From a virus: a DNA stretch of 52,749 bases. The translations under genes were made by a program, and so were the position numbers. The number at the start of each line of letters is the position of its first letter. The stretch's first letter is position 1. The stretch spans positions 1 through 52,749 of the IMG/VR virus record IMGVR_UViG_3300044617_001342; one strand, written 5' to 3'. Below the pieces are notes generated by a model. The model did not search any database, was not told the origin of the DNA, and saw only the letters and a list, made by a program, of their open reading frames with translations. Of the stretch, positions 35,625 through 36,263 are shown piece after piece.

Positions 35625-35790
35625 TAGGCAATCTCACTTGCTTGATTAAAATAGGTAGTTGGCCATTCGCGTCAAGCGCACGAAGAGTACCAACTTTAGC
35701 CTCCATGAGGCTCTTGTGACGGTTATTACGAAGACGGGTTTTGCGCTTTCTATGCGCCCGAGCAGTTACACGTTGTTTTGAATTAGGCAT
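35617..35790 (-). CDS. Small highly basic protein (57 aa)
   Basis: Reads MPNSKQRVTARAHRKRKTR and continues with further Arg/Lys, then a hydrophobic C-terminus (LPILIKQVRLPNG). First gene after an early promoter; its ATG is 6 nt from the -10 box, giving a predicted leaderless mRNA. The Arg-rich first half suggests RNA or DNA binding. Missed by length-filtered ORF calling. Confidence 0.7.
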   Translation of the reverse strand: MPNSKQRVTARAHRKRKTRLRNNRHKSLMEAKVGTLRALDANGQLPILIKQVRLPNG

Positions 35791-35824: not shown

Positions 35825-35829
35825 ATAAC

Positions 35830-35853
35830 AAAACCCCCTTTGAAGGGGGTTTT
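35830..35853 (-). terminator. Terminator of the tmRNA transcript
   Basis: An 11-bp stem AAAACCCCCTT / AAGGGGGTTTT with a 2-nt loop; T-run on the minus strand. It ends the tRNA-Tyr/tmRNA transcript just upstream of the next early promoter. Confidence 0.88.
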
Positions 35854-36175
35854 GGGTCGATTCAGATGCGGGAGACCAAACCCCACTGCTTTAAGCAGCC
35901 ATTGCCATATAGTTGGCAATTATTTTTGCAACTGTTTATTTACGACACTTGTTACCCGTGTCGGGTATCTCCTTCTTCATTACTTTGCGCCAATCGATTC
36001 CTTTCGACCCCGGTGACCCGAAGCCTAGGACTTCGGGAAATGCCCCGCTGCTACGAGGACTTAATTCGCCGTTTTCAGAGGATTGCAGATTCTCTGACTT
36101 AGGCTAATGGAGTCGGGGGGATTCGAACCCCCGTCTTGTACGCATTTCAATCCAATATCAACAATACCATTTTTA
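35854..36175 (-). ncRNA. ssrA: Circularly permuted (two-piece) tmRNA
   Basis: Read on the minus strand, the acceptor piece comes first. It has a P2 strand (ATTG..TGCGT), AGAC, a T-arm GGGGG-TTCGAAT-CCCCC (36116-36132), acceptor CGACTCC (36109-36115) and discriminator A (36108). After about 96 nt of hairpin-rich intervening sequence, the coding piece begins with GGGGTCG (36011-36005). This pairs with the acceptor strand over 7 bp with G3-U70, the alanine identity pair. GGAATCGATTGG resembles the conserved tmRNA 5' region. P2 re-forms as GCGCA/TGCGT plus TAAT/ATTG. A pseudoknot (ACCC/GGGT with loop GACAC pairing GTGTC) sits before the tag frame, as PK1 does. CCA is not encoded. Rescues stalled ribosomes with SmpB (presumably host). 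The 5' end of the acceptor piece is uncertain. Confidence 0.88.
35891..35929 (-). other. tmRNA tag reading frame (AKIIANYMAMAA)
   Basis: Resume codon GCA at 35929-35927, then codons for KIIANYMAMAA and a TAA that sits in the palindrome CTGCTTTAAGCAG. With the charged alanine, the predicted tag is (A)AKIIANYMAMAA. It lies about 19 nt after the PK1-like pseudoknot. The C-terminal -MAA is a hydrophobic-Ala-Ala end, as ClpXP-type degrons require. Confidence 0.8.
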
Positions 36176-36180
36176 TTTAG

Positions 36181-36263
36181 TGCGAGCGGAAGGATTCGAA
36201 CCTTCGTAGACATAAGCCAGCAGATTTACAGTCTGCCCTCGTTGACCGCTTGAGTACACTCGC
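36181..36263 (-). tRNA. tRNA-Tyr (anticodon GTA)
   Basis: Class II tRNA with a long variable arm: acceptor GCGAGTG/CGCTCGC, anticodon stem GCAGA/TCTGC with loop CTGTAAA (GTA, complement of 36227-36229), T-arm GAAGG/CCTTC, discriminator A. CCA not encoded. It lies directly upstream of the tmRNA on the same strand, probably in one transcript. Confidence 0.95.

Follow-up and report, generated by a model that had tools for sequence, protein, structure and literature searches.

We very probably deal here with a permuted tmRNA gene of an uncultured T4-like phage clade, the two pieces of which would be matured by the host for trans-translation, and the intervening sequence (IVS) of which is a conserved RNA. 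Judging by its covariation, the IVS is not a passive spacer but has a pseudoknotted fold of its own. A first-pass annotation of this DNA had recognised the complete permuted gene in a T4-like phage, but missed its most unusual part, the conserved structured IVS.

The window, that is, the whole stretch of 52,749 bases analysed here, is an IMG/VR virus record with replication genes of the T4 type. The T4-type set comprises the gp43 polymerase, UvsX, gp41/gp61-type helicase and primase, phage thymidylate synthase, and ribonucleotide reductase. In the Rfam scan, RF04321 (tmRNA_permuted) matches positions 35891-36168 of the minus strand over the full model (1-213) with 82.3 bits (E 2.5e-14; gathering cut-off 47 bits). 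Independently, ARAGORN calls a permuted tmRNA (tmRNA*) with the tag ANYMAMAA*. Together with the T4-type genes, these calls bear out the first-pass annotation, which had described a permuted tmRNA with all core parts in a T4-like phage. The adjoining tRNA-Tyr that it had reported is also called by ARAGORN and matches RF00005. Verification by ARAGORN and by the Rfam models of permuted tmRNA subtypes had been suggested at that stage; RF04321 is above its cut-off, but the subtype models are not. The betaproteobacterial model beta_tmRNA (RF01850) is the best of the older subtype models for the window and the homologues (56 to 33 bits): it gives 56.0 bits in the window against a cut-off of 84, i.e. 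28 bits short, and 53 to 33 bits in the homologues. As all these scores are below the cut-off, neither the window gene nor its homologues are members of the beta subtype. Neither alpha_tmRNA (RF01849) nor cyano_tmRNA (RF01851) reaches the gathering threshold in the window; in a scan at E up to 10, of the tmRNA clan only beta_tmRNA is displayed, lower-scoring clan members being omitted.

The gene limits given earlier, 35854-36175, were close; the gene in fact starts at 36168 and ends with the terminator at 35854-35829. The early promoter claimed upstream comes down to a weak match to sigma70-type promoters (36573-36546), some 280 bases upstream of tRNA-Tyr. A small, very basic protein (MPNSKQRVTARAHRKRKTRLRNNRHKSLMEAK..., 35626-35790, minus strand) is encoded directly after the tmRNA terminator. 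Its composition is ribosomal-protein-like, and it has no match in Pfam or PHROG.

Table 1. Features of the permuted tmRNA locus and of the proteins with shared N-termini (window positions)
Feature	Positions	Strand	Details
tRNA-Tyr (GUA)	36180-36263	-	just upstream of tmRNA; CCA not encoded; ARAGORN and RF00005
Acceptor piece	36108-36168	-	P2 strands, T-arm GGGGG-UUCGAAU-CCCCC; RF04321 alignment and sequence
Acceptor 3' strand CGACUCC	36115-36109	-	followed by discriminator A36108; CCA not encoded
IVS	36012-36107	-	96 nt, conserved structured RNA; core 36107-36041 and third hairpin; IVS covariance model R1, 108 bits
IVS P1	36068-36104	-	GCC 36104-36102 : GGC 36070-36068; encloses UAA and IVS hairpin P2
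IVS hairpin P2	36097-36092 : 36080-36075	-	variable; two-sided changes in 6/6 pairs
IVS loop-loop pseudoknot	36088-36083 : 36053-36048	-	CUGCAA : UAGCAG; covariation
IVS P3 hairpin	36042-36060	-	GUCCUCG...CGGGGC; loop is the pseudoknot partner
IVS third hairpin	36017-36037	-	CCCGAAGUC-CUA-GGCUUCGGG; palindrome CCUAGG; two-sided changes in 5/7 pairs
Coding piece to terminator	35829-36011	-	P2 strand 35968-35964, PK1, tag, P5, PK2
Acceptor 5' strand GGGGUCG	36011-36005	-	pairs with CGACUCC, 7 positions, G3-U70
PK1	35928-35963	-	CGACAC:GUGUCG (35963-35958 : 35948-35943) and GUAAC:GUUGC (35955-35951 : 35932-35928)
Tag frame	35891-35917	-	GCC AAC UAU AUG GCA AUG GCU GCU UAA = ANYMAMAA; ARAGORN
P5 hairpin and PK2	35868-35898	-	P5 = CUGCU-UAA-AGCAG, loop holds the stop codon
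PK2 (proposed)	35885-35882 : 35872-35869	-	UGGG:CCCG
Terminator	35854-35829	-	3' limit of tmRNA gene
Proteins with shared N-termini	18128, 28774, 32023, 39604, 41375, 49537, 50962; 39011, 44464	+	

Helix P2 is re-formed between the two pieces by the pairings GGUAU:AUACC, GCG:CGC and CAA:UUG, and PK1 lies before the resume codon. Relatives were collected by scanning IMG/VR, and the tmRNA alignment contains 33 distinct genes. The acceptor stem, P2, T-stem, PK1, P5 and PK2 hold in the homologues. In 36 pairs, the acceptor stem being left out, 98.7% of the cells are paired in the 33 homologues; two-sided changes occur in 13 of these pairs versus 6.0 in shuffles, and controls with slid partners give at most 50% pairing. 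P2 and PK1 have 96.5-100% of cells paired, and two-sided changes occur in P2 as well as in the PK1 stem. The two PK1 helices are paired in 97% and 99.4% of cells, with such changes in three stem pairs. The acceptor position 4-69 is seen as G-C, A-U and C-G, and G3-U70 is constant. The acceptor-stem variants CGACTCC/GGGGTCG, CGGCTCC/GGGGCTG, CGGTTCC/GGGACCG and CGGGTCC/GGGCCTG are pre-selected for pairing, as the script demanded seven pairs, the loci themselves coming from RF04321 or from patterns. Compensatory pairing in related phages, named beforehand as a point on which the gene could fail, is observed (the 13 two-sided pairs versus 6.0). The same holds for the elements described at that stage, namely the acceptor stem of seven pairs with G3-U70, P2 across the pieces, PK1 and the tag frame, which are present and show compensatory changes among homologues. 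The PK2 pairs are invariant, and thus PK2 is only proposed.

All tags of the homologues have eight residues, with Ala first and (M/I/V)AA last, and vary between these ends (e.g. ANYMAMAA, ANELAMAA, AEELAIAA, AAPMRMAA). Longer tags given by ARAGORN for L112, L085 and L104 were rejected as misreadings, the eight-residue frame being common to all homologues. In the window (35901-35920, minus strand) and in the homologues the tag frame folds into a hairpin of its own, AUUGCC...GGCAAU, or CCGC...GCGG in the AAPMRMAA variant, and thus the tag sequence may be under RNA-structure constraint. A near relative, G008 (the contig of L015, 135,768 bases), shows no match to either the permuted tmRNA model or that of the IVS; some members of the clade may thus lack the gene.

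In the phage clade, 72-100 nt lie between the discriminator and the coding piece, with no encoded CCA. This stretch begins, directly after the discriminator, with an invariant UUAG, and its part before the coding piece varies in sequence and length. The core, which makes up the first two thirds of the IVS, is conserved to about the same degree as the functional pieces: its mean pairwise identity is 80.6%, versus 86, 82 and 88% for the functional pieces (86% being that of the acceptor piece in the homologue alignment) and 35% for the 19-base upstream flank. About 30 positions of the IVS are invariant, many of them in joining segments.

The IVS helices were initially spotted by eye and then counted on 21 distinct sequences. 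The 28 pairs are formed in 94.0% of cells, and 15 of them show two-sided changes versus 6.9 in shuffles; slid controls give at most 44.6%. P1 survives a two-sided change in L112 and is also kept as GGU:GCC. The loop-loop pairing CUGCAA:UUGCAG changes to CUGUAA:UUACAG (L104) and to CUGCGA:CCGCAG (L112), and CUGUAA...CAACAG stands at these positions in three further contigs. The closing pair of P3 is G-C, A-U, U-A or G-U. The third hairpin is missing from 7 of the 29 distinct IVS; where present, symmetric changes keep its loop a 6-nt palindrome (CCUAGG, GCUAGC, CCCGGG). A pairing between AGCCUA of the IVS and UAGGCU of hairpin 3 was dropped, as it is broken in L268 and impossible without hairpin 3.

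The IVS is linked to the tmRNA. Among 42 records sampled by polymerase only, mostly fragments, R1 matches the same 10 as RF04321 and none of the 32 others. A pattern search of IMG/VR, which itself demanded UUAG beside the discriminator (a requirement from which only the polymerase-based sample is free), found the core inside a tmRNA with the T-arm upstream in all 61 contigs; the tRNA-like 5' domain follows downstream in 60, and the remaining one stops at the contig edge. Rfam scans of the window (E up to 10) and of six homologues (E up to 5) gave no convincing match to the IVS; the sole small match in this region beside the tmRNA models is raiA-hairpin (E 2.1, below cut-off). R1 has no match in 399 Pseudomonadota genomes, a set without a positive control, and among the matches listed for a loose IVS pattern over the genome collection none has tmRNA context. 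The structured IVS appears to be undescribed in the literature searched.

The first-pass annotation had named only bacterial groups as known carriers of permuted tmRNAs, but a phage-borne one is not unprecedented: a 2022 report (PMC9004378) describes phage Melnitz and lists 53 phage genomes, 50 of them from marine or aquatic sources, in which ARAGORN calls two-piece tmRNAs. In the 2025 tmRNA database, 79 unique phage tmRNA sequences are listed (PMC11915505). What is new is this member and, as far as the literature searched goes, the structured IVS; the clade has no close relative in INPHARED. The ssrA gene of Methylophilales phage Melnitz (MZ577097) is likewise a permuted gene of a T4-like phage, with one transcript predicted to yield an acceptor and a coding piece (PMC9004378); it scores 113 bits in the present analysis. 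However, it is of the alpha type (RF01849, 106.7 bits), has the tag ANDNYVPVDYALAA, encodes CCA, and carries a glutamine riboswitch (RF01739, 52.8 bits) directly behind the tag; in the IVS of the window, a glutamine riboswitch was sought and gave no match. In Melnitz the IVS measures about 140 nt and lacks the core of the window clade: over the first 100 kb of the Melnitz record, where the tmRNA lies, R1 yields nothing better than E 0.8. That IVS (L404:46127-46270) seemingly contains a small open frame with GGAG before ATG, unlike the structured IVS of the window.

The genes of Alphaproteobacteria (RF01849) have the same order of acceptor piece, IVS and coding piece, and the same P2, PK1 and tag. 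In 30 genomes measured, 29 of them alphaproteobacterial, the IVS is 8-62 nt long (median 33), with ACCA encoded at its start, whereas that of the window has 96 nt, is structured and lacks CCA. A structured RNA within a permuted-tmRNA IVS is also found in GCA-2688965__sp002688965.2 (PMC11915505); this, however, is a single nominally archaeal gene with an ordinary tRNA-Ala inside, not a clade-wide new fold.

The following scheme would account for these observations. A single precursor would be transcribed, and its middle removed by the host tRNA-processing enzymes. The two pieces would be joined by pairing in P2 and the acceptor stem, and the acceptor piece would receive CCA and then, given G3-U70, alanine. 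With host SmpB, the RNA would rescue stalled ribosomes, adding an eight-residue tag that ends in AA. No SmpB was found in the 33 phage records, mostly fragments, and thus the host protein would be needed. The earlier suggestion that the phage takes over ribosome rescue is not supported, either by this SmpB search or by any sign that the host gene is replaced.

As for the IVS, our first, if tentative, choice is a cis-acting maturation element that would direct or guard formation of the acceptor 3' end. Its core abuts this end but lies at a variable distance from the coding piece, and no CCA is encoded, which points to a role at this very place; all 30 bacterial genes measured encode CCA and none of the phage clade does, which we also count for this role. 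The IVS might recruit or orient a 3' nuclease, block exonucleases, or cut itself. Covariation proves the structure of the IVS, not a role in maturation. On the other hand, such a role is not demanded, since host RNase Z could form the 3' end unaided and different spacers serve in other phages and in bacteria. A broader possibility, which we regard as doubtful, is that the IVS represents a new functional RNA class, catalytic or ligand-binding, built into the tmRNA gene, by which the phage would control the timing and manner of making its two-piece tmRNA independently of host processing.

It is unlikely that the excised IVS acts as a separate small RNA, possibly dimerised via the third-hairpin loop, on a target in the host or the phage. 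The preserved palindrome of this loop would fit such a role; however, the IVS was never met outside the tmRNA (61 of 61 contigs), the hairpin is lacking in a quarter of the set (the 7 of 29 noted above), and no target is known.

Two further readings are each improbable. The compact pseudoknotted fold, the invariant positions, many of them in joining segments, and the constant junction with the acceptor 3' end might suggest a self-cleaving ribozyme cutting the precursor, making maturation independent of host nucleases. However, even at permissive thresholds the IVS of the window and those of six homologues match no Rfam ribozyme family, and CCA could not be added to a 2',3'-cyclic phosphate end unless this was healed first. 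A by-eye resemblance to the twister ribozyme (CCUAA, CAAG.CC, GAGGG) was also considered and rejected, since the topology differs and there is no Rfam twister match. The aptamer-like conservation pattern, with the riboswitch beside the Melnitz tmRNA (PMC9004378) as precedent, could equally suggest a ligand sensor tuning tmRNA production or folding, but no Rfam riboswitch matches in the same searches, the IVS has neither a terminator nor a start site to control, and the third hairpin lacks a U-tract and is frequently missing. Finally, that the whole tmRNA is a decaying host-derived passenger retained by chance is most improbable: in its favour, the gene was seen in only 10 of the 42 polymerase relatives, most of them fragments, but this reading is contradicted by the compensatory changes in the acceptor stem, P2, T-stem and PK1, and the eight-residue tag frame keeps its ends throughout the clade.

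A planctomycete host, considered earlier, finds no support: of the 199 genomes in the phylum to which a Kuenenia (planctomycete) MAG belongs, one passes RF04321, and the contig concerned (L410) encodes a T4 gp33-like protein and thus is probably a misbinned phage contig. In INPHARED, the best gp43 match has 41.6% identity and is to cyanophages, so there is no cultured close relative; a DNA search with the tmRNA gave only short T-arm matches. Many otherwise unrelated proteins of the window share short N-termini such as MKSFKQFLIE or MNHITNYYKN (Table 1). These resemble the sequence that targets internal head proteins of T4 to the capsid, and the proteins are possibly a large set injected with the DNA.

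Permuted tmRNA genes have so far been portrayed as two functional pieces around a discarded spacer, whereas here the spacer is conserved. The IVS is a candidate RNA family for Rfam. With about 70 nt and more than 30 natural variants, it offers a test system for the maturation of two-piece tmRNA and for the control of this maturation by the phage.
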